53,810 bases of DNA, from positions 1-53,810 of the IMG/VR virus record IMGVR_UViG_3300044814_000019; one strand, written 5' to 3'. The position numbers and the translations under genes were made by a program. The number at the start of each line of letters is the position of its first letter. The first letter of the stretch is position 1. The DNA comes from a virus. Shown piece after piece: positions 1 to 53,810 of the stretch. Under the pieces are notes generated by a model, which made no database searches, was not told the DNA's origin, and saw only the letters and a program-made list of their open reading frames with translations.

Positions 1-127
1 GCAGTCCTCGCCGGGCCTTTAACTATCAACCCGCAATCTGGAGTAATTCCAGGATTCACGATCAATCAATCTCTATCTGGCTCGTCCCTGCCGACCGGCA
101 ATGCCGCAAATCTGATCTTCATAACAG
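1..127. repeat. Terminal direct repeat marking circular assembly
   Basis: These 127 bases are identical to 53684-53810. The length equals a common maximum assembler k-mer (127), and a reading frame continues across the join without a shift. This indicates circular closure of the contig rather than a biological terminal repeat. The genome is then 53,683 bp, either circularly permuted or circular. Confidence 0.93.
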
Positions 128-1152
128 GAGACACCGCACAGGCTGGGGCTGGTTTCATCAATGGTTCGGAAATCACGCATTTCGTGGGAGGGTCAGCAGT
201 CACAGGCGGCCGAGAGGCGTTCGCCTCCTTTCTAAAGCTCACCGCCCCGACAAATGCCTCCAACCCAAATCGCAACTATGTTGGGATTTGGGGGAATGCC
301 TTCTCGGATGCCGGCGATGGCGGGACGAATACAGGCGCGGGTGCCTTGGGCGCGCTTTTTGGGAGTGGCGCCTGGGGTGATCTTCAGTCCGGGGCGACGA
401 ATCTTCTCAATGTTTCTGCCGCTGAGTACAACGTCTCGGCGCGTACAGGGGCAAGCGTCAAGCATAAGACCATCATCCAGGCAGTCCAGCACGCTCTTGA
501 TGCGGTTCCAGGTGCCACGACAGATGCGGCAATCGTGGTGTCGTCGCAGGGCTCACCCGCGACCGGATTGACTGATGGATTGCTATTCTCCGATATGGCG
601 GGAGCGCAGGGCGTAAAGACGGCTGGCTCGCTGATCCGATCGACCGGCGGCACATTCGCAAACGGTGTTGACTTCTCCGCGTCCACTCTCACTACTGCAT
701 ACAAGTCGAGCGGGTTTAACGTAGACGGCAGTGGCAACGTCACGATGAACAACCGCGCCGTAGCGGGGGATATCTGGGCCGGGACCAGCAATAAATTTCT
801 TGATGCTGCAAGCGCACAGGCTGCACTCGCACCGCAGGCCATCGCGATCTCGACTAGCACGTTTACGCCGGTTATCGCGAATGGCATCAACTACGAAATT
901 ACGCTCGTCCACGCCTCGTGCCCATGCACGATCGCCAATATCGCGAGTCCTCCAGTAGGGCAGTCGTTCTATCTGACGGTCATTCAAAGTGCGACGGGAA
1001 GCGATACCATCGGGACATGGGGGACCAGTTATAAGTTCCCCGGCGGAACGCATCCGACATTATCAACAGGTGCGAATGCAGTGGACATTCTACCGGTGTA
1101 TTGCCGGACTGCAACATTCTGCGCTGTGGTGTTCGCGGGGAATTTCCAATGA
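1..1152 (+). CDS. Tail fibre-like protein, C-terminal part (continues from 52835)
   Basis: Open from the first base and in frame with the gene starting at 52835 once the 127-bp overlap is merged; the joined protein is about 666 residues. This part (about 383 residues) is rich in Gly, Ser, Thr and Ala. It ends in a beta-rich segment with paired cysteines (SCPCTI and later YCRTATFC) and a short tail ending in GNFQ, as in many phage tail-fibre tips. The stop codon overlaps the next start as ATGA. The role in host recognition is inferred from composition and position among tail genes. Confidence 0.8.
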   Translation, partial: AVLAGPLTINPQSGVIPGFTINQSLSGSSLPTGNAANLIFITGDTAQAGAGFINGSEITHFVGGSAVTGGREAFASFLKLTAPTNASNPNRNYVGIWGNAFSDAGDGGTNTGAGALGALFGSGAWGDLQSGATNLLNVSAAEYNVSARTGASVKHKTIIQAVQHALDAVPGATTDAAIVVSSQGSPATGLTDGLLFSDMAGAQGVKTAGSLIRSTGGTFANGVDFSASTLTTAYKSSGFNVDGSGNVTMNNRAVAGDIWAGTSNKFLDAASAQAALAPQAIAISTSTFTPVIANGINYEITLVHASCPCTIANIASPPVGQSFYLTVIQSATGSDTIGTWGTSYKFPGGTHPTLSTGANAVDILPVYCRTATFCAVVFAGNFQ

Positions 1153-2030
1153 CGCGGGTAGCAATAGCCGTAATTGGCTTTGTCATTGGCTTCTTCCTTG
1201 TCTTCTCTTCGCTGCAACATGCGCCAGCTCTGCCGCTACCGGGGCATCAGCCGCCGTTCTTCCTTGGGAGCACTGCGCAGACCGGATTTGGGAATCTTTC
1301 TGCAGACGGGACAGCCAATAATAAGGGGACTTCATCGGCGACAGTAGCTATTAATCTGTCCGCCGCGACTGCCGGTGATATTATTGTTGTTGCGACTAAT
1401 TGTTATCGGACTGCTGCGCAAGGCTCTCTTACGTCTGTTTCAACGGTTGCCTCTACTAACCTGCCTTCTGGTGGCTGGCATTTGCGTAAGCAGCTACAGA
1501 TGTCTGGAACCAATTCCTCAGGACTTGGAATCACAGCCTTCAACGATTTGGAGATTTGGTGGACTTATTCTTCTGCCACTCTCAGCGCCGAGTCCATCAC
1601 TGTCACGTATGGCGCCGCCTGCGACTGCCTGCAGTCGTGGGGTTTGGCTGTGAAGGGTTTTATAGGCACGCTATACCAAACCGCTCCTTGGGATGTAAAT
1701 GCATCGTTGCCGGCCGCGCGAACAGATCAAGGAACCAGCGAGCTGCCCAACAACCCATCGATAACCACCACGGCCTCTCATTTCATGCTCATCCAAGCAG
1801 TCGGAACTTATGGTGGGATTTATACGCAAAATCTAACTTCCGATGCTACATGCTGCACTGGTGGTGCTGATACAAATATCGACAACTCGAATACGAGGCA
1901 GGCTAACCTTGCTGTGCAATATGGCCCGGTTCCGCAAACCGGCACGATTGCGTCCGGCTACACGCTGATAATGGGCGGCTCGATGCCATTCACCTACCAC
2001 GCCATCGCTGATGCGCTAACATCGCCCTAG
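1149..2030 (+). CDS. Predicted exported or membrane-anchored tail-module protein
   Basis: 293 residues. The ATG overlaps the preceding stop (ATGA), which fixes the start. Residues 4-22 form a hydrophobic segment (IAVIGFVIGFFLVFSS) that could be a signal peptide or anchor; no clear AxA cleavage site follows. The rest is Thr/Ser/Gly-rich and beta-prone, with cysteine pairs (ACDC, CC). No enzyme motif was recognised. Its position directly after the split fibre gene suggests a tail or receptor-binding accessory protein. Confidence 0.7.
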   Translation: MTRVAIAVIGFVIGFFLVFSSLQHAPALPLPGHQPPFFLGSTAQTGFGNLSADGTANNKGTSSATVAINLSAATAGDIIVVATNCYRTAAQGSLTSVSTVASTNLPSGGWHLRKQLQMSGTNSSGLGITAFNDLEIWWTYSSATLSAESITVTYGAACDCLQSWGLAVKGFIGTLYQTAPWDVNASLPAARTDQGTSELPNNPSITTTASHFMLIQAVGTYGGIYTQNLTSDATCCTGGADTNIDNSNTRQANLAVQYGPVPQTGTIASGYTLIMGGSMPFTYHAIADALTSP

Positions 2031-2442: not shown

Positions 2443-2859
2443 TTGTTTTATAGACCAGGCGGCTCCGCGACGCGGATCAGTAACCAAACCGATACCGTCT
2501 ACGCCGACAGCGTGAACGGTGCGACTGGCTGGCTGCCTGTGAGTAAGGGCAACACTATTTCCGTCAACATAGCCCGCGCTTCGCTAGCGTTCGTCACCGC
2601 TGCGGCCAGCACCATAACGCCGTCCTATGTGGCGCCGGAAGCGCAAGTCGTCATGGAAATGAAGATGTACGGCGGCGACCCGGATTCGTCTGCACGACCA
2701 ATCGACCAATGGCAGAACATCGTTGTTGCTTCGTCGCGGCGTGCCCACCGCGAAGGCTGGGTACGGCTGCGCATCGTCAATATCAACAGCAGCGGAGGGA
2801 CGGGCGTCGTCATGGATATGCAGATCGCCCGTACGGGTGATGTTGGTGCATCTACATGA
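2443..2859 (+). CDS. Probable virion/tail protein, TTG start
   Basis: 138 residues. The frame opens with TTG at 2443 behind a strong GGGGAGGGG ribosome-binding site; no ATG precedes the conserved-looking N-terminus. It is beta-rich with hydrophobic alternation and no recognisable enzyme motif. It is the first of a run of four genes joined by ATGA overlaps (next start 2856), which suggests translational coupling and a shared structural role. Confidence 0.65.
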   Translation: MFYRPGGSATRISNQTDTVYADSVNGATGWLPVSKGNTISVNIARASLAFVTAAASTITPSYVAPEAQVVMEMKMYGGDPDSSARPIDQWQNIVVASSRRAHREGWVRLRIVNINSSGGTGVVMDMQIARTGDVGAST

Positions 2860-3485
2860 GCGGCTTTGACCAAGGGACGGCACAAGGCGGCGTCTTCGCC
2901 CAGGCAAAGCAGTTCGGCTCGATCCTGCGGGGTTTCGGGCCGCCCGTGCCGGCTGCTGGTGTCGTCGGCGATCTGTACATAGACACACAGACATGGTTTC
3001 TGTACGAGAAGCGCAATTCGGAAGCCACGGACCCGTGGGGCCACTATCTGTTTGCTGTGCCGGCACAGTACCAGTCAGGTCTGAATTGGTTTAGTTCCTC
3101 GCTTCCGACGAACAATTTTGGCGTAGACGGTGACTATTGCCTGCTTTGGGCTGGTTTCAACAATTACGGACTTCAGCCATCTTTTTGCGGTCCAAATACC
3201 GATGGGTACTGGCCGGAAAGCGGAGACGGACCGGCTTTGCTGCTCGATCCGACGAATGCAGGGTATACGATTCCTGTCGGGCTGACAGACGAAGGCGCGC
3301 TCATTGCGTTCGGCAATTCGTGGCAGCTTGTAGTTGCCGGCCTCGATACCGAATACGTCCTATCCATCCCGGTTCCACAAGTTACGGGTACGTCTTTGAT
3401 CGAGCGCGGGTTGCAGTCGGCACCGGCTGTCGTTCCTCTCGCCATCAATCCGCTGTACGCGGCTGTAGATGAGCACGCCATATGA
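2856..3485 (+). CDS. Tail-module protein, paralogue of next gene (long copy)
   Basis: 209 residues, starting in an ATGA overlap. It shares with the following gene the pattern MSGFD-GT, GVFAQAKQFG, PAAGVVGDLYIDTQT, WG-YLFAVP and GDYCLLW-G-NYGLQPS. The GDLYIDT-type motif is common in short beta modules of phage tail fibres. An insertion of about 65 residues near the C-terminus is absent from the paralogue. Likely a tail-fibre or virion surface protein. Confidence 0.7.
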   Translation: MSGFDQGTAQGGVFAQAKQFGSILRGFGPPVPAAGVVGDLYIDTQTWFLYEKRNSEATDPWGHYLFAVPAQYQSGLNWFSSSLPTNNFGVDGDYCLLWAGFNNYGLQPSFCGPNTDGYWPESGDGPALLLDPTNAGYTIPVGLTDEGALIAFGNSWQLVVAGLDTEYVLSIPVPQVTGTSLIERGLQSAPAVVPLAINPLYAAVDEHAI

Positions 3486-3910
3486 GCGGGTTCGACAACG
3501 GTACGATTCAACAGGGTGTCTTTGCGCAGGCGAAGCAGTTCGGCCCAGTGCTGCTCGGCACTGGCGAGCCCGTGCCGGCGGCCGGCGTTGTTGGTGACGT
3601 ATACATCGACACGCAAACTCAATTTTTATACGTCAAGCGTTCCAGCGATAGCACAAGCCCGTGGGGTAACTACCTGTTTGCCGTGCCTCCGACCTACCAA
3701 GGCGTGCTTAAGTGGTTCAGTTCGGCGCACCCGACGAACGATCTTGGTGCGAATGGCGACTATTGTCTGCTTTGGGGCGGCTACCCGAATTACGGGTTGC
3801 AGCCGTCCATCCTTGGACCAAAGGCAGCCGGCGCGTGGCCCGCCAACCCAGCTGCAGTCGCGGTCGCACTTAACCCGCTCTACACGGCGGAAAATGAGCA
3901 CGCGGTATGA
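3482..3910 (+). CDS. Tail-module protein, tandem paralogue (short copy)
   Basis: 142 residues, starting in an ATGA overlap. About half of its residues match the upstream gene across its whole length (MSGFDNGT, GVFAQAKQFG, GDVYIDTQT, GDYCLLWGG), and both end with a similar NPLY-A--EHA tail. The two genes are a tandem duplication followed by divergence and loss or gain of one segment. Probably a structural or receptor-binding module. Confidence 0.7.
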   Translation: MSGFDNGTIQQGVFAQAKQFGPVLLGTGEPVPAAGVVGDVYIDTQTQFLYVKRSSDSTSPWGNYLFAVPPTYQGVLKWFSSAHPTNDLGANGDYCLLWGGYPNYGLQPSILGPKAAGAWPANPAAVAVALNPLYTAENEHAV

Positions 3911-4518
3911 GCTACAATTCGGCAACGGATTTTATCGGGCTACTGCGGCTTGTCGGCAGTGGTGTGCGCTCGGAACGGATGCCGGGGCTTGATTACGTCG
4001 TCGCCGCGCTGGCCCGTGCAGGCATGTTTGCGCTGTCAGTTGGACAGACCGCGCCAACGGCAAATCAGCCGAGTACGTTTTGGTTCCAGCCTGCCATCCT
4101 ATCATGGTCGGCGGAAGGCACGCTGTACATCTGGAATCCGGTGGCCGGAGCTTATCAGGTCGCAACGCCAGCGCTGTGGCAAGCGTTCCTGTCGTCATCC
4201 GGTTCGGTGTTTCAATCGCTCGCCGCTGCGAACAACACCATAAATCCGGGAGTGTCGCTTGCTGCCATACAGCGTGCCGCGCCCGTTAATACGGCTGTGT
4301 TGTTGCCGACGATCGCAGCGCAGTACCTTACGCAGAAAGACATCGTGTTAGTTGACTTTTCAACAGGAGTCGTCAACCACACCATTGCGTTATCGACGCC
4401 GGATGGTGCTACAATTATGCAGCAAGTGGGGTGGCAGCTCCTATCAACGGCGGCCTACCTGGCGCGCGTACGTCTTCGTCCGTCTCCCGATCTCAACTCT
4501 TGGGTTTTAATACCATGA
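3907..4518 (+). CDS. Tail-module protein of unknown function
   Basis: 203 residues, ATGA-coupled to the preceding gene and, through ATGA at 4515, to the next. The centre (TFWFQPAILSWSAEGTLYIW) resembles the beta modules of the neighbouring tail proteins; the C-terminal half alternates hydrophobic and polar residues. No catalytic motif seen. Placement between duplicated fibre-like genes and a secreted fibre-like protein suggests a virion role. Confidence 0.65.
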   Translation: MSYNSATDFIGLLRLVGSGVRSERMPGLDYVVAALARAGMFALSVGQTAPTANQPSTFWFQPAILSWSAEGTLYIWNPVAGAYQVATPALWQAFLSSSGSVFQSLAAANNTINPGVSLAAIQRAAPVNTAVLLPTIAAQYLTQKDIVLVDFSTGVVNHTIALSTPDGATIMQQVGWQLLSTAAYLARVRLRPSPDLNSWVLIP

Positions 4519-5795
4519 AAATCCGTACCGCCGCAGCTCTCGCGTTCTTTTTGCTTTGCGCTCCCGTTCTTGCTCAGCAGACGCCGAACCACTCCATCCC
4601 GATCGGGCGCGGTGCCGGCATCACTGGCTACGGCGCCGCGGTGCCGAGCACTGCAGGACAGCCGCTCGTCAGCCAGGGCGCAACTACAGACCCGGCTTTC
4701 GGCACGATCGCCAACAGCGGATTTACGGCTGGCCCTGCGAATAGCGTCAAGGGCAGCTTGGACGGCACCAGCGTAGGGGACGAAGCGGTCCCTGCGTGCA
4801 CGGGTGTCAACCAAGCACTGCGCTGGACGGCCGGCGTCGGCTTTAGCTGCGGCACCGTCAGCGTCACGACTGGCTTTGATATGCCGGTCAATCTTGGCCT
4901 GTCCGCTTCTGCGTCCGGCAACGCGCTTACCATCACTCTGACGCAAGCGAGCGGGTCTGCGCCTACCGGCACCAGTCCGGTTTTGGTGCCGTTCCGATCC
5001 ACCACGGCGACGGCTGGCACGGTGACGTGGAGCACGATATCTGCCACTCAATCTATCGTCGTGCCGGCTGGCGCGACTCTCGGCACTTCAAGCGGAAGCG
5101 TTCCTTTCCGCGCCTGGATTTTTGAAGAGTACCACGGCGGTACGCCGGAGCTGGCCGTCGCGACGTGCAGCAGCCCGACAGCGGTTTTTCCATGTGCTGC
5201 TTGGGAAAGTTCGCTACCCACCAGCATAACCATTGGAGGGTCTTCCAACAGCGGCGGCGTGCTGTATGCCACGACTGGCGTCGCTGCTGATGCTGTACGG
5301 ATTATCGGCTATTGCGATTACGCCAGCGGCTTGGGCACGGCGGGTACTTGGGCTAGTTCGTGCACGGCTTTGCAAGTGTTTGGTCCTGGAATCAAGAAGC
5401 CAGGCGATGTGGTGCAGACTGTTGTTGGCACGCGAAACACCCCAACCTCCACGATTTCGGCTACGTTCGTCACGTCCAACATAACGGCGTCTATTTCGCT
5501 GAGTTCGTCAATGAACCTTGTTATGGGTTCTTACTATGCCGACGCTCAACCTACGAGCGGAACAACACAGACGGTTACCCACCAACCGACCCGGGGAAGC
5601 ACGCAAATAGGAATACCTGTTGGCTACACCACTTCAGCGTCCGGCATTCTCGCAAATGTGTACGGATCGTTTCTGGATGCCCCAGGCACCGCCGCTTCGA
5701 CCGCATACGCAGCGTTTTATAAGGTGAACGCTGGCCAAGGTACTGCATTTCCGGCAACGAATGGACAGATCATGCTGCAAGAGATCATGGGATAG
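4515..5795 (+). CDS. Signal-peptide-bearing tail fibre-like protein
   Basis: 426 residues. The start at 4515 (ATGA overlap) is preferred over an in-frame ATG at 4431 because it begins a textbook Sec signal peptide: MKIRTAAALAFFLLCAPVLA followed by QQT, with cleavage expected after VLA. The mature part is a long Thr/Ser/Gly/Ala-rich beta-type sequence with scattered Cys pairs, like a tail-fibre shaft. A signal peptide on a phage tail protein is unusual, and several other genes here share it. Confidence 0.72.
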   Translation: MKIRTAAALAFFLLCAPVLAQQTPNHSIPIGRGAGITGYGAAVPSTAGQPLVSQGATTDPAFGTIANSGFTAGPANSVKGSLDGTSVGDEAVPACTGVNQALRWTAGVGFSCGTVSVTTGFDMPVNLGLSASASGNALTITLTQASGSAPTGTSPVLVPFRSTTATAGTVTWSTISATQSIVVPAGATLGTSSGSVPFRAWIFEEYHGGTPELAVATCSSPTAVFPCAAWESSLPTSITIGGSSNSGGVLYATTGVAADAVRIIGYCDYASGLGTAGTWASSCTALQVFGPGIKKPGDVVQTVVGTRNTPTSTISATFVTSNITASISLSSSMNLVMGSYYADAQPTSGTTQTVTHQPTRGSTQIGIPVGYTTSASGILANVYGSFLDAPGTAASTAYAAFYKVNAGQGTAFPATNGQIMLQEIMG

Positions 5796-5798
5796 GTC

Positions 5799-6731
5799 AT
5801 GCCGAGCTTTTACGATACCGTAATTCGCAACTCGACTGCTTTCCGCAGCAGCGCAGTTTGCAAGGATCTCGCGCTACTCGAGCCGGGCACGCGGACGGCC
5901 GTGGTCGCGCTGTTGGCGGACGCCAAAGAGCAGGGCATCGACTTGCGGCTGTTGGAGACTTATCGATCGCAGACGCGGCAGAGTGCGCTATTCGTGCAGC
6001 GCGCAACGCAACTCCGCACGGTCGGGTGTCATGGCTACGGCGTTGCGGCAGATTTCGGCGTCTTCGTCAATGGCAAGTACGCCGAAGACAACAAGCCGTA
6101 CGTGTTCCTCCGCGTCATGGCGCGCAAGCATGGTTTGGTTTCAGGTCAAGATTGGGGGCACGCTGCCGAGAGCGCCAGCTTCGTCGATAGCGGCCATGTA
6201 CAGCGCGTGCCGGTGTGGCGGCAAAGCGCACTATTCTCCGGTGCGTGGTACCCACCGGAAGTATATGACCCGTATCAGGATGAGGCCGCACAGCATTCGG
6301 ACGTGGTTGCCAGCTTGGCGGCGCCATCTGCGCCAGTTGCGGCCTCTGTGCCAACGCCTTCGGCCGCCCTGTACCGAAATACGGGTATCGTCGCAACGGT
6401 GTTCGGCGGCGCTGCCGATCATGAAACCAGCGCGTATACCGGCCACCGAATCGACGACACGATCGTAGGTGTCGCGCTGCCGGCGCACATGCCGGGCGTC
6501 AAGGTTCGCGTTCACAGCGGCAGTAAGTCAGTCGTCGCGGACGTTGTTGACATCGGACCGTGGAACACGAATGATCCGTATTGGGTTACTCACGCACGCC
6601 CCCAAGCCGAGAGCGGGACCGACATGCGCGGCCGGCACACAAACAAGGCCGGCATAGATTTGACGCCAGCCGCAGCCCGCGCGCTCGGGATTGACGGCAA
6701 GGGCATCGTGGATTGGGAGCTTGTAGGCTAA
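5799..6731 (+). CDS. Endolysin: M15-type peptidase fused to double-psi beta-barrel
   Basis: 310 residues in two parts. The N-terminal ~140 residues carry the M15 D-Ala-D-Ala/L-Ala-D-Glu peptidase pattern: HGYGVAAD gives likely zinc ligands His78 and Asp85, and QDWGH followed by DSGHVQ gives His133. The C-terminal ~120 residues resemble an RlpA/expansin-like double-psi beta-barrel (VVADVVDIGPW, then TPAAARALGIDGKGIVDWE). A Pro/Ala linker joins them. No signal peptide, so release would need a holin; small membrane-protein genes follow directly. It should cut peptidoglycan at the end of infection. Confidence 0.82.
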   Translation: MPSFYDTVIRNSTAFRSSAVCKDLALLEPGTRTAVVALLADAKEQGIDLRLLETYRSQTRQSALFVQRATQLRTVGCHGYGVAADFGVFVNGKYAEDNKPYVFLRVMARKHGLVSGQDWGHAAESASFVDSGHVQRVPVWRQSALFSGAWYPPEVYDPYQDEAAQHSDVVASLAAPSAPVAASVPTPSAALYRNTGIVATVFGGAADHETSAYTGHRIDDTIVGVALPAHMPGVKVRVHSGSKSVVADVVDIGPWNTNDPYWVTHARPQAESGTDMRGRHTNKAGIDLTPAAARALGIDGKGIVDWELVG

Positions 6732-7932: not shown

Positions 7933-8283
7933 ATGAACAAGACGCAGCTTCAAACCAGTACCGCAGCCCTTATTGGCGTCGCTGCCGGCTTCGCAGCAGC
8001 CCACGGGTGGCTTGGGCTGGGCGTGGGCGACTGGACTACCATACTCGGCGCCCTAGTCGCGGCCGGCGCTGTCGTGGCTCCTGCCATCGTCACGCGCGCC
8101 ACAGCCCTGAAAGACGCCGTAGGCAGCATGCCAGCGACTACCGTCGTGACCGACAAGGCCACGGCCGACGCATTGCCCGACAATCCTAACGTGATTGCCG
8201 CCACGCCGGAAATCGTCGCCGCCGTTAAGAAGGGGAGCGATGCCACTCCCGGCGTTCCGTATACGGGCGCGACGGTGCGGTGA
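7933..8283 (+). CDS. Membrane protein, candidate holin
   Basis: 116 residues. The start at 7933 follows GGAAGGG; an upstream in-frame ATG at 7894 is less likely. Two hydrophobic helices (ALIGVAAGFAAAHGWLGLGV and TILGALVAAGAVVAPAIV) are followed by a polar tail. The stop overlaps the GTG of terL, so the two are probably co-translated. Topology and position fit a holin. Confidence 0.65.
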   Translation: MNKTQLQTSTAALIGVAAGFAAAHGWLGLGVGDWTTILGALVAAGAVVAPAIVTRATALKDAVGSMPATTVVTDKATADALPDNPNVIAATPEIVAAVKKGSDATPGVPYTGATVR

Positions 8284-10763: not shown

Positions 10764-11492
10764 CTACCACTTCAACGCCAGGCCGGCGAGGTAGGTCGTG
10801 CCCACCCCGCCGCATGCTTGACCCTGCGGAAGGCCGTTGCCGAAGCACAAGCCCTTCTGCGGGAACTTGGTCATGGCGAACACGTCCACTACGGACCCCG
10901 AAGTGAGCTGGCCCAGCATGCCGACGCCCATTCCGGGGGCCAAGCGCCAGTCCTTGTTAGAGCCCATGCCGGCAATGTCGACCGTGATGTCGTCCTCGGT
11001 CAGTGCGCCGAAGATGTACGGTTTGATGTTCGATGCGACCTGTCCGCCGGGAAGGGTCGGGAACGGCGGGACCTGGAGGTTGAAGGTCGGGAACAGGGCT
11101 GCGATATCATTGAGCGGGGCCCCGACCATGACGCGCTGGGTGAACGTCGCCGGCCCGGTCAGGCTGAATCCCTGGGCCGATCCGTTGAAGTTCTGCCAGC
11201 CGAACCAGCCCTCCGCCGCGGCGAAATAGGCGCTGTTCGGGACGTTCCAGACATAGCCGACGATGCCGGCCACGCCGATCTGGTTGGATACGAGGCTGTT
11301 CTGATTAACGCCCGGAATATCGGCCGTCACGGTGCCCCCGCCCCCCAGGGTGCCAACGCCGAAATAAATCCCGCTGGTCGACGGGTAGGCCGTGCTGAGC
11401 AGCGGCGCTTTGACGGGGAAAGGCTTCATATCAGCCGCGAAAGCCGGGCTGCAAAGCACGGTTCCGAGCAGTAAACAAGCAATCCGTTTCAT
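10764..11492 (-). CDS. Outer-membrane beta-barrel protein (Omp25/Omp31-like)
   Basis: 242 residues with a Sec signal peptide (MKRIACLLLGTVLCSPAFA, cleavage before ADM). The mature N-terminus (VKAPLLSTAYPSTSGIYFGV) follows the pattern of hyphomicrobial Omp25/31-type porins (AAD...KAP...Y.W.GFYIG). It contains alternating-strand segments and ends in an aromatic residue (LALKW), the usual outer-membrane barrel signal. AAGGAT lies upstream of the ATG. It sits inside a virion operon with no sign of being a separate cargo unit. A host-derived protein that alters the cell surface, for example to block superinfection, is a plausible role but unproven. Confidence 0.7.
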   Translation of the reverse strand: MKRIACLLLGTVLCSPAFAADMKPFPVKAPLLSTAYPSTSGIYFGVGTLGGGGTVTADIPGVNQNSLVSNQIGVAGIVGYVWNVPNSAYFAAAEGWFGWQNFNGSAQGFSLTGPATFTQRVMVGAPLNDIAALFPTFNLQVPPFPTLPGGQVASNIKPYIFGALTEDDITVDIAGMGSNKDWRLAPGMGVGMLGQLTSGSVVDVFAMTKFPQKGLCFGNGLPQGQACGGVGTTYLAGLALKW

Positions 11493-13221: not shown

Positions 13222-13690
13222 AGATCACCTTTTCGCGTGGCTGAATTTTCAAATCTTCCGGGGCGGCTTGCGCGGGTGCTTTCGCTGCGTCTTCGTCCCA
13301 CAGCAGTGTTGCCGGGTCCGGCATCTTATCGGACGGTACGCAGCCGATCACGTCTTGAAAGCTAGAGAGGTAGCGCCAGTGCCCGGCACCGGAAATCTTG
13401 CCGCCCACCGTCTGCGTCCCGGCGTACGGACGAAAAATAACCCAGTCACCGGTGTTCACGGGCTGCCGACTGAGGGCGCCCTCCGCATCTTTGTAGACGA
13501 ATGCAAGCGGCCCCATGGCGACGACGCGCCCGACCATGACGTTGTATTGCGCCATGTCCCGATAAACATCGGGTATCTGTATGCTGCCTACCATCTTTGG
13601 CGGCACCGGCAGCCGTACGATAACTATGTCTCGCGTCGGCTGTACGTGGGCGTGTGGTATAGCGAAGTCATGGACGCCGATGTTGCTCAT
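13208..13690 (-). CDS. GroES-like co-chaperonin
   Basis: 160 residues. The first ~120 follow the chaperonin-10 pattern: HVQPTRDIVIVRLPVPPKMV (cf. RPLxDRVxVR), SIQIPDVYRDMAQYNVMVGR (the mobile-loop and GxIxIP region), VVAMGP and VNTGDWVIFRPYAGTQT (cf. GDxVLFxKYxG). A C-terminal extension of about 40 residues is not typical of GroES. Phage co-chaperonins such as T4 gp31 help fold the capsid protein with host GroEL; the setting among head genes supports that role. Confidence 0.72.
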   Translation of the reverse strand: MSNIGVHDFAIPHAHVQPTRDIVIVRLPVPPKMVGSIQIPDVYRDMAQYNVMVGRVVAMGPLAFVYKDAEGALSRQPVNTGDWVIFRPYAGTQTVGGKISGAGHWRYLSSFQDVIGCVPSDKMPDPATLLWDEDAAKAPAQAAPEDLKIQPREKVIYARP

Positions 13691-45240: not shown

Positions 45241-45978
45241 ATGTTCAATATCGTAAACGCCGGCCAGCTCGGAGGCGGTTACCGCCATTACTCCGGTTTG
45301 CTGCCACTCACGCCCGGTGACGGCGGACCGCAGGCGCAAGCGTCTGTCCGTGTGTTCCACATCCCCGCAGCCAACGCAGCGGCGATTTTTCGGGGCGATA
45401 TCGTCGTAATGGCGTCGGGCTCAATCGGCACGCCAGGCGCGGCCGACCTGCCTCAAAACATCGGTACGCCGGCAACGCCGTCCGTCGTCATCGGCAACGG
45501 CGGCGGTACGTTGCTCGGCAACGCATCCATGGTTGCGAACATCACTCGTTGGGTGCCTGGTGACACGACCAGCGTCATTGCCGGCGTCGTTGTGGGTTGG
45601 GGGCCGATCACGCTGTACCAAGCGAAAAACGGTTTTCAGTACGCGCCGGCATCCACCGAGTGCTGGGCATTTGTCGAAACCGATCCGGCGCTTGAAATGA
45701 GCTGCACCATGCCGACCGTGCCGGGCACTGCGTTCAATCTCGATCTTCAATCCGGCATCGACTTGAAGGCCAATGCCGGGCAGCAATCGACGCGCTTTGG
45801 CATTTCGGGTGTGTCGCTCGACCCGGCGACCATCGCGACCACGTCCACGCTGCCACTTCGCATCCTCGACAGCGGCCAGCAAATCGGCAACGATCCGACT
45901 GCTGCCGGCTTCGTCGCCCGCGTTCAGTTCAACCTTTCTCGCCACTACAGGGGCGGCGCCGGCTTCGTCGCCGACTAG
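45241..45978 (+). CDS. Virion structural protein
   Basis: 245 residues; AAAGG precedes the ATG. The layout (N-terminal GGGYRHYSGLLPLTPGDG; VRVFHIPAANAAAIFRGDIV; TSVIAGVVVGWGPITLYQAK; WAFVETDP) follows a common phage capsid-surface/virion protein family ('GFRPV... Y.I....a..f.GD.V'). Ends SRHYRGGAGFVAD. First gene of the rightward late operon. Confidence 0.68.
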   Translation: MFNIVNAGQLGGGYRHYSGLLPLTPGDGGPQAQASVRVFHIPAANAAAIFRGDIVVMASGSIGTPGAADLPQNIGTPATPSVVIGNGGGTLLGNASMVANITRWVPGDTTSVIAGVVVGWGPITLYQAKNGFQYAPASTECWAFVETDPALEMSCTMPTVPGTAFNLDLQSGIDLKANAGQQSTRFGISGVSLDPATIATTSTLPLRILDSGQQIGNDPTAAGFVARVQFNLSRHYRGGAGFVAD

Positions 45979-46014: not shown

Positions 46015-46551
46015 ATGAAACTGTTTTGTAAGTTCAGCGCTGCGTTGCTGGTCGCGTTGATGCCGTTTTCCGCGGCTCTTGCGCAGACCGTCGTACAGGT
46101 TCCGTCGAACATAAACGCCGGAGTCGTTGCGGATCTCGGTAACGGCCCGACCGAAGTTCGCATGCTCCAAGGCAACATGGGGCTTTTCACTTCGCAAGGA
46201 TCTGGCATCGGCAGTGGGTCGACTACCACTATTACTTTGACGGCCAGCGCCGCCGCTAATCCGCCGTGTGTTGGGTGCTTAATATCGGGCACCGGCGTCA
46301 CGTCGGGGACGACCGTGACGGCGTTCAACGGCACCACGACGATTACCACGAATACGTCGCAGACAATTGCCGCCAGCACGGCGTTGTCGTGGGGCAAGGC
46401 GTGTCCGTCAGCGCCACCTTCGGCACCGCTCGCGTTGGTGCAGGCCGCAGTCGGTTCCGATCTCCCGATGTACACGCAAGCGCGCGTATGCGCATACGGC
46501 GGAAACGGTCCCGGCGGTCTGTACACTCAGTACGCCATCGGGGCGCACTAA
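46015..46551 (+). CDS. Signal-peptide protein, paralogue of the 52835 N-terminal domain
   Basis: 178 residues. Signal peptide MKLFCKFSAALLVALMPFSA then ALA/QT. The mature part aligns along its length with the first ~170 residues of the gene at 52835 (VADLGNGPTEVRM; LFTSQGSG; LISGTGVTSGTTVTAFNGTT; SWGKACPS; MYTQARVCA). The ...GTTVTAFNGTTTIT motif is typical of a tail-fibre beta module. Probably a free version of the fibre's head domain. Confidence 0.68.
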   Translation: MKLFCKFSAALLVALMPFSAALAQTVVQVPSNINAGVVADLGNGPTEVRMLQGNMGLFTSQGSGIGSGSTTTITLTASAAANPPCVGCLISGTGVTSGTTVTAFNGTTTITTNTSQTIAASTALSWGKACPSAPPSAPLALVQAAVGSDLPMYTQARVCAYGGNGPGGLYTQYAIGAH

Positions 46552-46628
46552 GTAGCTGGTTTGTTCTGGGCTGCCGTGTTCGCGTTGCCGTGCCTTAAGC
46601 GGGGCAATCAGCAAAAAGGTAAAGCCTG

Positions 46629-46940
46629 ATGGTCGCCAATCCCATAAAGACCATACCGCGCAGCTATCAGTCATGGGTCGCGCTCGCCGCGACGCCTGCG
46701 ACTGATTTTGAGCTGGACGCAGGCAGGTACGGCTTGACCGTGCAAACTGCCGGCTTTACGAGCTATCAGCTCCAGAGGTTGTTGCCCGATGGCGCGACGT
46801 ACGCGCCTGTCATGCCGGTAGCTGCCGCAGCGGGGTACACGGTGCTCGATTTGCCGGCGGGGCGGTACAGCATGGTTGTGGTCGGCGCAACTGCGTTTAC
46901 CGGTCTGATTGAAAAGATCGACACAGGGCGCGCACGATGA
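46629..46940 (+). CDS. Small virion protein
   Basis: 103 residues; AAAAAGG before the ATG. Beta-sandwich-like (LDAGRYGLTVQTAGFTSYQL; YTVLDLPAGRYSMVVVGATA). No signal peptide, unlike its neighbours, so it acts as an intracellular virion part. Four-base overlap with the next gene. Confidence 0.63.
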   Translation: MVANPIKTIPRSYQSWVALAATPATDFELDAGRYGLTVQTAGFTSYQLQRLLPDGATYAPVMPVAAAAGYTVLDLPAGRYSMVVVGATAFTGLIEKIDTGRAR

Positions 46941-47680
46941 AAAAACTCTTGCTTTTTGTTTTGCTGGCGTTGAGTGCGCTGTCTGCGCCCGCGAACGCGC
47001 AACAAGCGTCGTCAGCTTTCATTGTGTCGTCATGCGGTACACTTCCGGCCGGACTGACGTACGCCGCTGGGCAGTTCGGCATCCTCACGATGGATACGAC
47101 GGGAAAGCTCTGCGATAGCGCCACTGGCGGCGGAGGAGGTGGAGGCGCCATCACAGCTGCATCCGGCTCCTATGCCTCCGGGGCGCTGTCATCCGGTTCC
47201 GTGGTGGACCTCGGTTCGCAAGCCGATGCCGCCTGTGGAACGGCAACGGGTACGTGCTCGCTCATTGCGCTGCAGAAGTTCAATAATACGGCGACTAATT
47301 CGGCAATCCCCGCTGGTTCTGCAATCATCGGGCAAACTGGAATCGACCAAACTACTCCTGGTACCACTAACAAAGTTACCGTAGGTGCTCTGCCGCGTGC
47401 AGCTCGCAACACTCCTGGCTGTACAGTCGGAGCGACATCTGGGACATGCCTAGCTGCCGCTACTGCTATCACATTCCTGCAGATTCAGAACACATCGACG
47501 GCTAATACCGTGGCCTGCAACATAGTTGGCGGTACAGCTGTTCTCAACTCGGCGACCTCCGTACAGCTTGCTGTCGGCCAGTCGGCGTCATGGGGTCCGA
47601 ACACAGGCGGGGTGCCGAGCGGTGCGATCAATTGTATTGCCTCCGGGGCTTCTACACCGCTTTATGTTGAATGGAACTAG
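46937..47680 (+). CDS. Signal-peptide tail-module protein
   Basis: 247 residues. Signal peptide MKKLLLFVLLALSALSAPANA, cut before QQA. Followed by Gly-rich hinge (GGGGGGG) and a beta-rich, Cys-containing body. ATGA-coupled. Probably a fibre or surface protein; function not identifiable. Confidence 0.66.
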   Translation: MKKLLLFVLLALSALSAPANAQQASSAFIVSSCGTLPAGLTYAAGQFGILTMDTTGKLCDSATGGGGGGGAITAASGSYASGALSSGSVVDLGSQADAACGTATGTCSLIALQKFNNTATNSAIPAGSAIIGQTGIDQTTPGTTNKVTVGALPRAARNTPGCTVGATSGTCLAAATAITFLQIQNTSTANTVACNIVGGTAVLNSATSVQLAVGQSASWGPNTGGVPSGAINCIASGASTPLYVEWN

Positions 47681-47683
47681 GCC

Positions 47684-49141
47684 ATGAAAACCAAAAATCT
47701 ATTGGTTACCATCGCGTTTGGGGCGTGCTTTACGCTTGCTCTTGCGGTTGGCACGCAGGGACAGATTCAGCCCCCTCCGGGAAGCGGTGGCGGTAGCACA
47801 CCCGGCGGCTCGACGACGCAATGTCAGTACAACAACGCCGGTGCGTTTGGCGGCATCACTGGCTGCACAACTAACGGCACGGCGGTAACGCTGGTTGCTC
47901 CGGTGTTGGGCACGCCAGCAAGCGGAGTTGGGACTAACCTAACGGGCGTGCCGTTGACTACAGGCGTGACCGGAAATCTTCCGGTCACAAATTTGAACTC
48001 TGGCACTGCCGCGTCCTCGACAACATTCTGGCGCGGGGATGCAACTTGGGCAACACCGGCAGGGAGTGGGTCTCCAGGTGGATCAACGACTCAACTTCAA
48101 TATAATAATGCTGGCGCGTTCGCCGGAATTACTGACTGGACAACAGCCGGAACTACCGATCTTACCGGCCTGACCGGCAGCACTCTATCGGTTAATGGTG
48201 CTACAATCGGCACCAATAAATTTGCTGTGCTCGGCAAGACAGGCATAGGCGTTGGCAATCAGTCGGCCGCAAGCGTTTTTGGTACGGCTGGATATAATTT
48301 AGCGCAGCCAACTGGCACTGATACCGACACTGCTTCAACTGGAACGATTGCCCTCACATATGTAAATTCCTGGGGCTCCCGCACACTCGCCGCAAGCAGC
48401 GCCACGACACTGACGACAGTGGCGGGTAACTTTTTTGATGTTCCGGCTGCTGGCACGAATGTCACGTTTACCAATTCAGCACCTTCTGCAATTTTCAACA
48501 GTTCTGGGGTTGCTGGGTCGATAGTCGGATTTTCCGCCCCAGGAAACACAACAGCTTTTCGTTCTTATATGATGATTGCAAATAATACGGGAGTTAAGTT
48601 TCAGCGTTGGACTGATAATTTTGCTGCTCCTGCTGCAAGTGTATGGACTACTGATAATTCTCAGGGTAACGATACGTTTAATGTTTCAAATATCCTTACT
48701 GTTGCTGGAAACGCTATTATCAGCGGCCCTGCTTCCGCGACGTTTCAATTTGGTGCAGCAGCCGCTGCTTCGCCTGTAGCTCAAATTGCCAGAGCGCAGC
48801 CTTCGCGAGCCGGCACTGACACAAACGTCGGCGGTGCTAGTATTACATTTCAATCTGGTAATGGAACTGGAACCGGAACGCTTTCAGCAATTGCTCTGCA
48901 ATCGCCTATTGCTGTCGGCAGCGGCACTGGAGCGCAGACGCAGACTACAGGCCTGACAATTAAAGGCGGCACCGCCGTTCTGTCTGGTTACACAGTTTCA
49001 ACCCTACCCGCATCACCGACTACAGGCGCCATGGCTTATGTTACCGATGCTGTCGCTTGTACTTTTTTAGCAACTGTTACCGGCGGCGGTTCAACATTCT
49101 GCCCGGTTATTTGGACTGGCACAGCTTGGCAGGGCTCGTAA
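47684..49141 (+). CDS. Signal-peptide tail fibre-like protein with repeats
   Basis: 485 residues. Signal peptide [20 protein letters not shown] then AVGTQG/Q. Contains two copies of a [17 protein letters not shown] module (at about residues 43 and 130), which in other phages recurs in tail fibres. Thr/Gly/Ala-rich throughout. Likely receptor-binding or fibre shaft. Confidence 0.7.
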
Positions 49142-50218
49142 ATGCTAAAGTGTGTTTTATCGCTGATTATTAGTTCGGCGCTCGCTTGGAGTGCGCATGG
49201 CGTACAACTTCCAATTCCGGGCCTATGGCAGCCGCCAGCAATATCGGCGGATGGCAGCAAGATTTATATCCCGACATTTCCAGATAGCATTCTTGGGTCC
49301 CCGCCAGGATACTACCATTCGTCATATGATACCGGAAATACGTGGGTAAGGCAGGCCGGGTCGGGGAATAGGTTCTGGGTTGTTGGCTGCGCATCATCTG
49401 ATGGAACTATTGTTTATGGCGCTGATCAGAGCAGCAACGGTCTTGGCTCGATTTGGAAATCAATTGATAGCGGCGTTACGTGGGCGCAAACCAATAGTCC
49501 GCTAAAAGCATGGCAGCAGGTTTCCTGTTCAAGCGACGGGACAAAACTTGTTGGCTGCATTGGCTCACAAGGGGCGCAGGACGATTTATTTACATCAATC
49601 GACGGTGGAGTAACTTGGGTAGATCAAACAGGGTCGTTAACGCGTAATTGGTTGTTTTGCGTTATATCTGGCGACGGCGCCAAAATAGCCGCAACCAATT
49701 GGCTAGCGCACGGCCCCAACGGCGACGGTAAGGTTTACATATCAACCAACTGGCAAAGCGGGAGTCCTGTTTGGACAGGCAGCAATGCATCTGCAAATGG
49801 CTCTACGTTTGCTACGCCGAATTATTCTCGCGATGGATCGACGCTCTACGCTGCGTATAACGCTAACGGCAGCACCAGTCACATTTACAAAACGACCGAC
49901 AATGGTGCGAATTGGATTGACGTAAATCCTCCTGGGGGGACGACAAATCAGCGAAATTGGGGGTGGGTTGCGTGCTCAGCCAACGGACAGCGCGTCGTCG
50001 CATCAACCCTAGGACCGCGCACAGCATTTGTCTCAAACGATTTCGGTGCAACATGGACAGCATTCAATCCACAGCCTTACGGTCCGGCTGGATGGCAGGC
50101 ATCCTTCTTGGCTGTCTCCGATAATGGACTTGTCATCGTAAACGCTGGCTACGCCGGATACGTCAGCGTCTCTACGGACGGCGGCGCTCATTTTAACGTT
50201 ACTCAGGCAGTCAACTAA
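49142..50218 (+). CDS. Signal-peptide BNR/Asp-box beta-propeller protein
   Basis: 358 residues. Signal peptide MLKCVLSLIISSALAWSAHG. Five Asp-box motifs (S/T-x-D-x-G-x-x-W): SIDSGVTW (residue 107), SIDGGVTW (152), TTDNGANW (251), SNDFGATW (298), STDGGAHF (344). This is the mark of a sialidase-like beta-propeller. The catalytic Arg triad cannot be confirmed, so it may be glycan-binding only. Expected on the tail tip. Confidence 0.78.
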   Translation: MLKCVLSLIISSALAWSAHGVQLPIPGLWQPPAISADGSKIYIPTFPDSILGSPPGYYHSSYDTGNTWVRQAGSGNRFWVVGCASSDGTIVYGADQSSNGLGSIWKSIDSGVTWAQTNSPLKAWQQVSCSSDGTKLVGCIGSQGAQDDLFTSIDGGVTWVDQTGSLTRNWLFCVISGDGAKIAATNWLAHGPNGDGKVYISTNWQSGSPVWTGSNASANGSTFATPNYSRDGSTLYAAYNANGSTSHIYKTTDNGANWIDVNPPGGTTNQRNWGWVACSANGQRVVASTLGPRTAFVSNDFGATWTAFNPQPYGPAGWQASFLAVSDNGLVIVNAGYAGYVSVSTDGGAHFNVTQAVN

Positions 50219-50219
50219 C

Positions 50220-52808
50220 ATGAAAAAACGCATCCTCCCCCTTCTCGGCACCCTCCTAATCATCAGCGCCCTATCTGCATCGGCGTTCAGCGGGCCGGTC
50301 GAGGACGCGGCACTACAGTCGGGCTTCAACTCCTGGCGGCAGAACGGGAAGAACTTCCCGCTAGCGCAACTCAAGACGTGGCTCGCCGCAACCGCACCGA
50401 AAGGGCAGGCTGGACCACAGGGCGCCCCCGGTCCTATGGGATTGCAGGGACCGTCTGGGCCACAGGGTCCCGTCGGTTCGCAGGGGCCGGCTGGCGATCA
50501 GGTGGCGTGGAACGTGCATGGCACGGCAACATCGTTTGTGAATAGCACTTCATCCGTTGGAACAAATCTGACCAATTCATTCGGTTCGGCAGCAATGCCG
50601 TTTATGAATGTTTTCAAAACTGCTCAGCAGTGGTTTACGCGGACAGCAAGCATTGGTGATACCAACGAGGAAGCGTATCTCTACGCCAATGTTCTCGATG
50701 CCAATGGATACGCAACCAAGCTAACCGGCAATCCAACCGGGACATTTAACGCGACGTTCAACGGCACGACGACCATGGTGGTGAACTCGCCGACCAGCGG
50801 GGTAACTCCGTGGTTGGGCGGAACTCTAAACGTCGCCGGATCGCCAACTGTTACTGCTTGCCCGGTCGCAGGCTGTGGTGGGACGGGCAGTTATACGATT
50901 TCCGCCACTGTTTCCTCCGCCACGACCTCGGTCATTGAGAGCCCGACATTTACCCAACTTTCGATGGGGGTGCTAGGAGAGGTATCTACATTCGCGAGTC
51001 CATTTTATCCTGGCGGGAACGGCTCGTGGCTGTTCAAGTGGGATGGAAACGATTGTGCTGGATCGACCTGTTTTGAGTACCATAACGATGCAACTCTTGC
51101 GAGCCATTCATGCTCAGGTGGAACTTGCACCGACGTTCTGAATGTATCGCCAAGCTCAGGTGGCATTCGCGTATTTGAAACAGGCACCGGAGTAACGGCG
51201 CCGACCAACATTCGTCTTGTGCAGACGGCGCAGTACAACGCATTGAGCAGCGCGCAAAAAACCTCATTCGACAGCGGTGGAATATTTTTCAACCCCGACA
51301 GCACGAAGTACGACAAGCAGTTTCGCGGCTTCCGCATGATGGGGTGGAACCGCACGATAACTAGTATGGTGACTTCGTGGTCACAGAGATCGACTGTTGG
51401 GTGGGTATTCTGGCAGGATGGGATAAAATATAATTTCGACGTGCCGATAGAGGTGCAGCTTTCTTACTGCAACCAGCTTCACGGAGAGTGCTGGCTAAAC
51501 TCCCCCTGTATCGCTGATCAAGCGTACTACACCAGCGAAGCAACTTTCGTTCTGGCCAACCTTAACAGCGATCTTCCGGTTGTTCACGAAGCCTGCAATG
51601 AACAGTGGAACGGCGGTTCATTTCCTTCAGCGCTGCTTGCTGCGCAAAACACCAATGGTGCCGCTCTTTTTACCACTTGTACTGCTCTAAGCACGTTTCA
51701 GTGCAGGCTTGATTACAATGTCTATCAGGCCGTGACTTCATCGCTGATCTGGAAAAGCATTTGGACGGGCGGAAATGCAAGTCGCCTCACCATGGTTATG
51801 GGCGGTCAGTTTGGAAATCCGGGGGGCATAGATTTACCAAAATGCCAAATGCTTGCTACAGCGGACGGCGGTTCGTCGTACTGGACCGGACAGGCTTGCA
51901 GTCACGTCGATGCTGATGCGACTGCACCTTATTTCCCGGTTGGGTCGTTCGCCGGCATGTCGCCGCTGGCATGGACTGCCGATTCGGATGGTGGCTTGGC
52001 CCGTGTCTACACGCAACTTACATCCGGCACTTTGATCCCGAGCTCCAATGTCGCCGGTAACTGTGGCAATGGTGCGGGCATTACTTGCGGCGGCCCTGTT
52101 AACTACACTCTGACAACGGGGCTTAGCTTGAGCGCTGCCCCGGCAAATGGCTTCTGCATCGCCGCGACGTTCAATCAAATCGGTAGCACAAATCCTCACA
52201 TTGCGATAGATTCTCTCGGGTCTCTCCCGGTTATGGGGATGGACGGAGTTGTTGTGAACGCCATCCAAGCGCAGCAGTATGCATTGTGCTACACAACGGC
52301 AACTGCATCTGGCTCCGTAACTCCGCAATGGCAATTGAACGCCCCGCGATTTCCTTGTGGCACCAGTGAAATGGATTGCCAGGGAGTTTTGACTGCGTTG
52401 GCAAACACAACGGTTGCACAAGTATTCGGCATTAAGCTAATTGGTTACGAAGGCGGACAGACTTATAATGACCCGTGCGCCAATAGCGGCAATACGGCGT
52501 ATTGTGGAAACGCAGGCCATCCGGACGTTTTGCAAGAAACACTGCAAACGAACTTCAATCTTTCAACTCAAATGGGGCAGGCATACTCAGCATGGCTTGA
52601 TGAGCAAAAAGCTAACGGCATGGTTGATCTTTACCAGCTATCGGATAGCGGTCCTTGGTTGACAGACGGTTCCTTGTTGGGGCAAACTAACTACTTCCCG
52701 TTCAATCCAGGGACTTATTCGAGTAGCACACCAACCGCACGACAAAACGCCATTTACACCTGGATTCTAGCCAACCCATGTTGGTGGGCTGGCTGTACGA
52801 TAAATTAG
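50220..52808 (+). CDS. Signal-peptide collagen-like protein with glycoside-hydrolase-like motifs
   Basis: 862 residues. Signal peptide MKKRILPLLGTLLIISALSA then SAFS. Residues ~60-95 form about a dozen Gly-x-y collagen repeats (GPQGAPGPMGLQGPSGPQGP), typical of trimeric fibres. The C-terminal two-thirds carry HEACNEQWNGGSF with Glu461 and IGYEGGQTYNDPC with Glu744, which resemble acid/base and nucleophile motifs of clan A glycoside hydrolases (NE.W; YEGGQ). A capsule- or polysaccharide-degrading tailspike is likely; the spacing of the two Glu is wider than usual. Confidence 0.72.
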   Translation: MKKRILPLLGTLLIISALSASAFSGPVEDAALQSGFNSWRQNGKNFPLAQLKTWLAATAPKGQAGPQGAPGPMGLQGPSGPQGPVGSQGPAGDQVAWNVHGTATSFVNSTSSVGTNLTNSFGSAAMPFMNVFKTAQQWFTRTASIGDTNEEAYLYANVLDANGYATKLTGNPTGTFNATFNGTTTMVVNSPTSGVTPWLGGTLNVAGSPTVTACPVAGCGGTGSYTISATVSSATTSVIESPTFTQLSMGVLGEVSTFASPFYPGGNGSWLFKWDGNDCAGSTCFEYHNDATLASHSCSGGTCTDVLNVSPSSGGIRVFETGTGVTAPTNIRLVQTAQYNALSSAQKTSFDSGGIFFNPDSTKYDKQFRGFRMMGWNRTITSMVTSWSQRSTVGWVFWQDGIKYNFDVPIEVQLSYCNQLHGECWLNSPCIADQAYYTSEATFVLANLNSDLPVVHEACNEQWNGGSFPSALLAAQNTNGAALFTTCTALSTFQCRLDYNVYQAVTSSLIWKSIWTGGNASRLTMVMGGQFGNPGGIDLPKCQMLATADGGSSYWTGQACSHVDADATAPYFPVGSFAGMSPLAWTADSDGGLARVYTQLTSGTLIPSSNVAGNCGNGAGITCGGPVNYTLTTGLSLSAAPANGFCIAATFNQIGSTNPHIAIDSLGSLPVMGMDGVVVNAIQAQQYALCYTTATASGSVTPQWQLNAPRFPCGTSEMDCQGVLTALANTTVAQVFGIKLIGYEGGQTYNDPCANSGNTAYCGNAGHPDVLQETLQTNFNLSTQMGQAYSAWLDEQKANGMVDLYQLSDSGPWLTDGSLLGQTNYFPFNPGTYSSSTPTARQNAIYTWILANPCWWAGCTIN

Positions 52809-52834
52809 ATTGACGAGCGAGGCCGAGTATCCAG

Positions 52835-53810
52835 ATGAAAAAGCTCTTAGTCGCTCTATCAGTGCTATGCTGTACAGCGGTATCCGCGCTGGCGCAGAGC
52901 GCCGTCACGTTACCGATTGCTGCGAACGCCGTCGCCGACATCGGCAACGGCCCCATAAAAGTCCGCATGGTCGCGGGCAACGCGTCAATTTTCACGTCAC
53001 AAGGATCTGGCACTGGCAGCACGTCCGGCGCGTCTACAGCTTTGACGCTAACTGCGACGCCTGCAACACCACCGATCGTTGGCGGCCTGATTTCCGGCGT
53101 GGGTATCACATCAGGAACGACGGTCATCGCGTACAACGGTACGACGGGCATCACTTTGTCGGCCGCGATGACCGTAGCCGGCGGTACGGCGGTTGCGTGG
53201 GGTGCCGCGTGTCCGTCGACGCCGCCCAGCAACGTAATTCAAGCGTCACCCCAAGCCGACTACTACATTATGTACACGCAAGCCCGCGTGTGCGCAGTCT
53301 CGCCGGGCGGTCCGGTAAATACGCTTTTGATTGATCCGATTTTTTACGACCAAGCGACGCAGGGCGGTGGCGCCGGCCTAGTCGGATCAGTGTCCAATTC
53401 CGATGGAACGTTGACAATTACGCCAACAACCGGAGTGGTTATAGCATCTATTGCTTTGGGGCACCCAAACACATGGACTTCCACGCAGACATTTTCCACT
53501 TCCCCACTTGTTCCGACAGCGGCGCCTGGAACCAATAACACTCAGGCTGCTTCGACCGCATTTGTGCAAGCAGCGACGGCAACTTTTCTCAATAGTTTAT
53601 GCACTACGGCTGGCGCGTTTCCTGTCTATAACACAGTCAGCGCTGCCTGGGTTTGCTCTACAGTCGGCGGCGCAGGTTCGCAAGCAGTCCTCGCCGGGCC
53701 TTTAACTATCAACCCGCAATCTGGAGTAATTCCAGGATTCACGATCAATCAATCTCTATCTGGCTCGTCCCTGCCGACCGGCAATGCCGCAAATCTGATC
53801 TTCATAACAG
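52835..53810 (+). CDS. Tail fibre-like protein, N-terminal part (continues at base 1)
   Basis: Opens with signal peptide MKKLLVALSVLCCTAVSALA then QSA. First ~170 residues are paralogous to the gene at 46015 (see there). A linker with a short coiled-coil-like segment (NTQAASTAFVQAATATFLNS) resembles the AxTxFV modules of phage fibres. Continues through the 127-bp overlap into 1-1152; total ~666 residues. Cut only by the window ends. Confidence 0.8.
   Translation, partial: MKKLLVALSVLCCTAVSALAQSAVTLPIAANAVADIGNGPIKVRMVAGNASIFTSQGSGTGSTSGASTALTLTATPATPPIVGGLISGVGITSGTTVIAYNGTTGITLSAAMTVAGGTAVAWGAACPSTPPSNVIQASPQADYYIMYTQARVCAVSPGGPVNTLLIDPIFYDQATQGGGAGLVGSVSNSDGTLTITPTTGVVIASIALGHPNTWTSTQTFSTSPLVPTAAPGTNNTQAASTAFVQAATATFLNSLCTTAGAFPVYNTVSAAWVCSTVGGAGSQAVLAGPLTINPQSGVIPGFTINQSLSGSSLPTGNAANLIFIT
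53684..53810. repeat. Second copy of the 127-bp terminal overlap
   Basis: Exact copy of bases 1-127; see that entry. The tail gene starting at 52835 runs through this copy and continues at base 1 in the same frame. Confidence 0.93.

Follow-up and report, generated by a model that had tools for sequence, protein, structure and literature searches.

The window analysed here comprises the whole of virus record IMGVR_UViG_3300044814_000019, 53,810 bp in length. It begins and ends with identical copies of a 127-bp direct terminal repeat (1..127 and 53684..53810), and the record is circularly complete. For this reason the gene at 52835 is not truncated but crosses the record ends to position 1152, and a single cassette, to which 1149 and 4515 also belong, extends from 45241 through the junction as far as 5795. 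An endolysin gene (5799), a holin-like gene (7933) and the large terminase gene (TerL, 8280) follow 3' of it in this order. Its replication genes specify, among others, a DNA polymerase, a helicase and a gp2.5-like protein. A head-closure protein is also encoded, and relatives of this type are annotated as P22-like stabilisation proteins; these features make a podophage the most likely assignment for the virus. A tRNA search for host clues yielded none, and neither TerL nor the N-terminus of the 4515 protein had a relative among 84,980 bacterial and archaeal genomes, hence no host was assigned. In the capsid module, a possible GroES-like gene is suggested by its position at 13208-13690 (minus strand), and a co-chaperonin GroES is annotated between portal and scaffold in the capsid-module relatives MW202785, CRP-902 and QDWS535.

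All cassette genes lie on the plus strand and are referred to below by their first coordinate; 'exported' denotes a predicted signal peptide. The cassette starts with a conserved, non-exported structural protein (45241..45978) that is capsid decoration-like by homologue comparison, its homologue in the podovirus MW202785 lying immediately 5' of the major capsid gene. Next come an exported conserved protein of 178 aa (46015..46551; signal peptide 1-23, mature protein starting with Q, beta-rich, four mature Cys), a non-exported conserved partner of 103 aa (46629..46940) that shares 4 bp with the start of 46937, and an exported conserved protein with eight mature Cys (46937..47680; signal peptide 1-21). 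Three exported variable proteins follow: a fibre-like one with four mature Cys (47684..49141), one with BNR/Vps10-type beta-propeller similarity and five mature Cys (49142..50218), and an 862-aa protein with 24 mature Cys in which a collagen-like stretch precedes a large domain (50220..52808). This block differs completely among relatives. The exported 666-aa protein (52835..53810 continued at 1..1152, with the 127 bp shared by both ends; signal peptide 1-20) has an N-terminal domain of the type that constitutes 46015 alone, and its C-terminus is exchanged, being different in the homologue of relative L004. The cassette continues with an exported or anchored 293-aa protein (1149..2030), a non-exported conserved module protein (2443..2859), two copies of a non-exported conserved fibre-like protein (2856..3485 and 3482..3910), a non-exported adapter of about 200 aa (3907..4518) overlapping the next gene by 4 bp, and an exported fibre with six mature Cys (4515..5795; signal peptide 1-20, a conserved mature N-terminus of about 40 aa and an exchangeable C-terminus).

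Signal peptides were scored by a rule standing in for SignalP, which asks for a basic n-region, an uncharged hydrophobic core and a cleavage site with small residues at -3 and -1. Calibration with two 50-kb E. coli K-12 segments gave positive scores for 11/11 exported, 1/56 cytoplasmic and 4/18 inner-membrane proteins. Open reading frames were found at all listed starts and scored as coding. The results showed that 46015, 46937, 47684, 49142, 50220, 52835, 4515 and 1149 are positive, which amounts to 8/15 cassette genes compared with 2/49 genes elsewhere in the window (Fisher p = 5e-5). The two positives outside the cassette are the holin-like protein (7933) and a barrel-like protein (10764). 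Thus, the initial annotation was right in assigning Sec signal peptides to the first seven of these proteins: each has the positive n-region, hydrophobic core and small -3/-1 residues typical of Sec/SPI substrates, with cleavage itself predicted. The AxA-type cleavage site it gave to all of them holds for some, as 49142 has SAHG and the site in 47684 is ambiguous (ALA or TQG). It had further taken the start of 1149 for a bare hydrophobic anchor; a signal peptide is more likely, since the corresponding segment of a relative (L054:537), which starts MNWFLLALFLLGSAPAAAQ, is a clearer one, and 1149 probably carries a signal peptide as well. The exported proteins had also been described as a run from one operon. 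They do belong to a single cassette, but one that includes 45241, 46629, 2443, 2856, 3482 and 3907, all lacking a signal peptide.

To compare the cassette between phages, relatives were collected through the terminase (57 loci) and through 45241 (11 loci). As the loci were mostly found by TerL, the sample was not selected for signal peptides; gene order is kept in it. A search of related phages for the same feature, which had been proposed earlier, gave a clear answer, in that the conserved exported genes keep their signal peptides in essentially every relative. Counting distinct sequences, the rule was positive for 11/12 members of the 46015 family and 24/25 of the 4515 family, and the signal peptides of the remaining members (MSRLLAILLAAALPISDAIAQ and MKFGKLEVVLFVLFNMLVASPAIGQ, respectively) are clear by eye. 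The 46937 and 52835 families scored 5/7 and 5/6, the exceptions being wrongly called starts or one clear failure of the rule, and the 10764 family scored 11/11. Among control families, by comparison, no positives were found for TerL (0/33), 2856 (0/51), 3907 (0/42), 2443 (0/26), endolysin (0/11), 40061 (0/11) or 46629 (0/9), and 45241 gave 1/13. The signal peptides could in principle be products of chance or of wrongly chosen start codons, as the rule is also positive for 12/266 spurious ORFs. The enrichment in the cassette, together with signal peptides in almost all orthologues and in none or hardly any of the controls, leaves this explanation with next to no probability, and we regard it as refuted by the comparative data.

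The signal peptides are less alike than the next 45 mature residues in 259/300 pairs of the 4515 family and in 46/55 pairs of the 46015 family. The segment drifts in sequence and in length (18-34 residues), while the hydrophobic core, the positive charge and the A|Q junction are kept; in the conserved exported families this junction is nearly invariant and is followed by a conserved mature start. This is how a cleaved signal peptide evolves, and it is unlike the behaviour of a structural joint. In one relative, an 803-aa cassette protein (L064:1109-3520, MMKRRDFLTGASAAAIASLA) has a twin-arginine-type signal (RRDFLTG) in place of the Sec signal. These findings bear on the proposal that the hydrophobic N-terminus is never cleaved and serves a cytoplasmic virion protein as 'pilot', joint or membrane anchor. 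Hydrophobic N-termini alone would be expected to look similar, and the hydrophobic stretch of 1149 is long. Nevertheless, the variation of the segment in sequence and length up to a nearly invariant A|Q end and conserved mature start, the twin-arginine-type signal and the even cysteine numbers described below make a pilot or joint very improbable, and this part of the initial annotation is not upheld.

We then counted cysteines in the mature proteins. Among mature exported proteins with at least two Cys, even and odd numbers stood at 78:5, compared with 120:63 for other proteins of the same phages (p 1e-7); since related sequences are not independent, one count per sequence cluster was also taken, which corrects for this in part and gave about 33:4. 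In the domain shared by 46015 and 52835, the two cysteines of a CxxC motif are gained or lost together. The mature exported proteins thus have the paired cysteines of periplasmic proteins that fold with disulfides, and the even numbers fit disulfides made in the periplasm. The odd numbers in 49142 and 1149 count against this picture. Taken together with the conserved signal peptides and their drift with the essential features kept, the even cysteine numbers make it very likely that the proteins are exported by Sec and then fold with disulfides in the periplasm. Nearly all of the variable, host-recognising, tail-fibre-like proteins of this family of uncultured phages carry a bacterial export signal together with disulfide-type cysteine pairs, and their production and folding therefore probably take place outside the cytoplasm, separately from the other virus parts.

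As for the identity of the exported proteins, the conserved mature N-terminus of 4515 begins QWQTPNHSVPIGRG..., and the C-terminus is swapped between relatives; single members of the family match beta-helix, pectate-lyase-like, tail-spike and pre-neck-appendage families. The structure model of the window protein is of moderate quality (mean pLDDT 68), with the N-terminal 70 residues, including the putative docking segment, disordered, which speaks neither for nor against docking. Its C-terminal part is modelled as tail-fibre-tip-like and matches many phage proteins, e.g. the tail fibre of cyanophage S-CAM7 (E about 1e-7). The model of 46015 (pLDDT 82) gave a weak match (E 0.0065) to the capsid decoration protein 8eci, which according to the structure search comes from Arthrobacter phage Bridgette, and partial-length matches to phage collar, fibre and capsid proteins (E about 1e-4 to 1e-3), so that support for a fibre fold is weak in this case. 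The arrangement of receptor-binding proteins is nevertheless present, with a conserved N-terminus and an exchangeable C-terminus in both 4515 and 52835 and a fibre-tip or beta-helix fold in the 4515 family; the exported proteins look like adsorption parts.

The gene preceding 4515 suggests a link to the virion. In 20/23 loci with a visible upstream gene, 3907 lies directly 5' of 4515 (-4 to +2 bp), and the three relatives with a second exported fibre (L040, L053, L055) each have a separate copy of 3907 directly upstream of it. The first ~95 residues of 3907 are conserved and recur in longer non-exported proteins. One of these fuses the adapter to a pectate-lyase-like beta-helix tailspike (L054; PF12708, E 1.4e-9) and another to a phage tail collar domain (L042; PF07484, E 3e-16), both without a signal peptide, and where such long forms occur (L042, L064, L054) the coupled 4515 is absent. 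The fusions indicate that the adapter belongs to the tail appendage and that the exported fibre replaces a part which is fused to it elsewhere. Adapter-docked fibres likewise have an adapter gene of their own that is coupled with the gene for the fibre.

On this basis, the best reading, to which we give about even odds, is that the exported set consists of receptor-binding fibres produced in the periplasm and attached to virions upon lysis. The cassette would then be an adsorption module in two halves. The virion-side proteins 45241, 46629, 2443, 2856, 3482 and 3907 would remain in the cytoplasm, and the receptor-binding and glycan-active fibres 46015, 46937, 47684, 49142, 50220, 52835, 4515 and probably 1149 would pass through the host Sec pathway, shed their signal peptides and acquire disulfides once in the periplasm. 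Once holin and endolysin had opened the cell, fibres would meet tails, and the conserved mature N-termini would dock on the adapters. The endolysin (5799..6731, plus strand), with VanY-like and DPBB domains, has no signal peptide here or in the relatives (0/11), and lysis is thus probably holin-dependent, keeping the compartments apart until then; the holin-like small membrane protein is encoded at 7933..8283 (plus strand), and its positive score by the rule is likely false. The wider proposal of a two-compartment assembly of a tailed phage, in which head, tail and adapters form in the cytoplasm and Sec-exported, oxidised fibres attach only when lysis mixes the compartments, falls somewhat short of even in our estimate. 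'Assembly in the periplasm or at lysis' had been one of the meanings offered in the initial annotation; it gives the best fit to the gene coupling and the fusions, which are the grounds for predicting virion location and docking. Arguments against it include the cytoplasm being the normal site of tail-fibre folding and assembly, and the dilution from which docking after lysis would suffer.

The possibility exists that the exported proteins never join the virion and are instead directed to the envelope or released, acting in the periplasm, on the outer membrane or in the lysate, where they would modify or strip host surface glycans and so block superinfection or free the progeny from debris. 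Secretion of free glycan-active proteins had been suggested from the start, and we keep it as the main rival because several variable members look glycan-active: 49142 has its BNR/Vps10 similarity, L088:14614 in the variable block of a relative is weakly GH43-like, and L004:2205-3266, inserted between the 46015 and 46629 homologues, encodes an O-antigen-ligase-like (Wzy_C) membrane protein. Genes of similar size occupy this last position in L057, L062 and L086, and none is there in the window. Several variable-block proteins of relatives have motifs that by eye resemble TIM-barrel glycosidases (e.g. CWNEP and DSEGGW in L037:107), a likeness unconfirmed by any family model. Lipobox-like or twin-arginine-type signals in some relatives also favour an envelope role, as does the export of the outer-membrane-barrel-like protein at 10764..11492 (minus strand), which is encoded in the capsid/packaging operon (mature start ADMKPFPVKAP...). 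Besides the signal peptide, most members of its family have the C-terminal F, W or Y of a barrel; there was no convincing match to Pfam or NCBIfam and thus to any known barrel family, and no match was found when 10764 was compared with phages or one of its relatives with plasmids. That the barrel-like protein and, in relatives, the O-antigen-ligase-like protein accompany the system suggests envelope modification instead. In L057, an exported protein of 1091 aa with 18 mature Cys (L057:11969-15244, minus strand) replaces the barrel-like gene beside the terminase, and likewise in L065.

Despite these points, we judge the envelope or released role possible but distinctly less probable than attachment to virions. 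The most conserved exported proteins have the architecture of receptor-binding proteins, with C-termini that can be exchanged. Translation of 4515 is coupled to that of a virion-type adapter, itself fused to tailspikes in relatives, the genome has no further obvious variable receptor-binding genes, and Sec alone does not carry a protein across the outer membrane. The set could also be mixed, with the conserved 46015, 46937, 52835 and 4515 as virion fibres and the variable 47684-50220 and 1149 as free exported enzymes. Only the conserved proteins recur at fixed places beside conserved non-exported partners, and the variable block is wholly different between relatives, as such a division would predict. 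The block is, however, tightly spaced and situated between conserved exported fibres, and in L090, L091 and L093 its slot behind 45241 holds large non-exported fibres, mostly with few Cys (0/20 genes exported). A mixed set is therefore improbable in our view, though less so than an uncleaved pilot.

If the exported fibres do end on virions, they would be an exception to the wholly cytoplasmic assembly of tailed phages, and the host Sec and disulfide machinery would act as phage assembly factors. If they never do, the clade would have an unusually large set of exported anti-surface proteins made from tail-fibre parts. In both cases, the cassette connects export with disulfide stability and adsorption in a way that can be tested, and a signal peptide together with even Cys on fibre genes is a marker by which other phages can be searched.

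Comparison with known phages showed that tailspikes, adapters and Sec signals are each of known kinds, and that their combination was not found among the cultured phages examined or in the open-access papers searched. In cultured phages, homologues of 46015 and 10764 were not found, and 4515 had just one partial and weak match. Distant TerL relatives (about 35% identity) have mostly SAR-endolysin- and Rz-type-looking hydrophobic N-termini and no exported fibres, and the terminase/capsid relatives PTXU04, H6/1 and CRP-902 have no signal peptides by the rule. Vibrio phage 431E45.1 gave three small positives; two adjoining small signal-peptide proteins are encoded near its large late genes (L098:18906-19912). 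No report of Sec-exported tail fibres in a tailed phage was found in the open-access literature searched.

Podophage tailspikes and fibres of the beta-helix type (PF12708, PHROG tail spike, pre-neck appendage) likewise combine a conserved docking N-terminus with an exchangeable receptor-binding or depolymerase C-terminus, but the present cassette puts a Sec signal peptide in front of the docking part and encodes the adapter, which is not exported, in a gene of its own. In adapter-based branched fibres, a separate virion adapter gene is followed by the fibre gene. The cassette resembles them in having the adapter directly upstream and extra adapter copies with extra fibres; it differs in the prediction that the fibre stays in another compartment than the adapter up to lysis. 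The Lom protein of lambda is a phage-encoded, exported outer membrane protein specified near the tail genes (PMC12309495). The 10764 protein fits such Lom-type or conversion proteins, but Lom is a single barrel, whereas the cassette exports an entire fibre-like module. Agrobacterium phages Milano and 7-7-1 have disulfide-rich virions and structural proteins (PMC10491603, PMC10811340, PMC12796354), and the parts of these reports consulted do not mention signal peptides, whereas the strong even-Cys bias seen here is confined to signal-peptide proteins. The only comparable case found was PhiAX1_440 of the Acetobacter prophage phiAX1 (LC644973; L170:26418-27383), a gene of the structural module that is followed by a predicted glucanotransferase. 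Its product likewise has fibre-like repeats, a Sec signal peptide, Q at +1 and four Cys; it is a single gene without sequence homology to the cassette. Its occurrence suggests that fibre-like proteins may have come to be exported in other phages as well.
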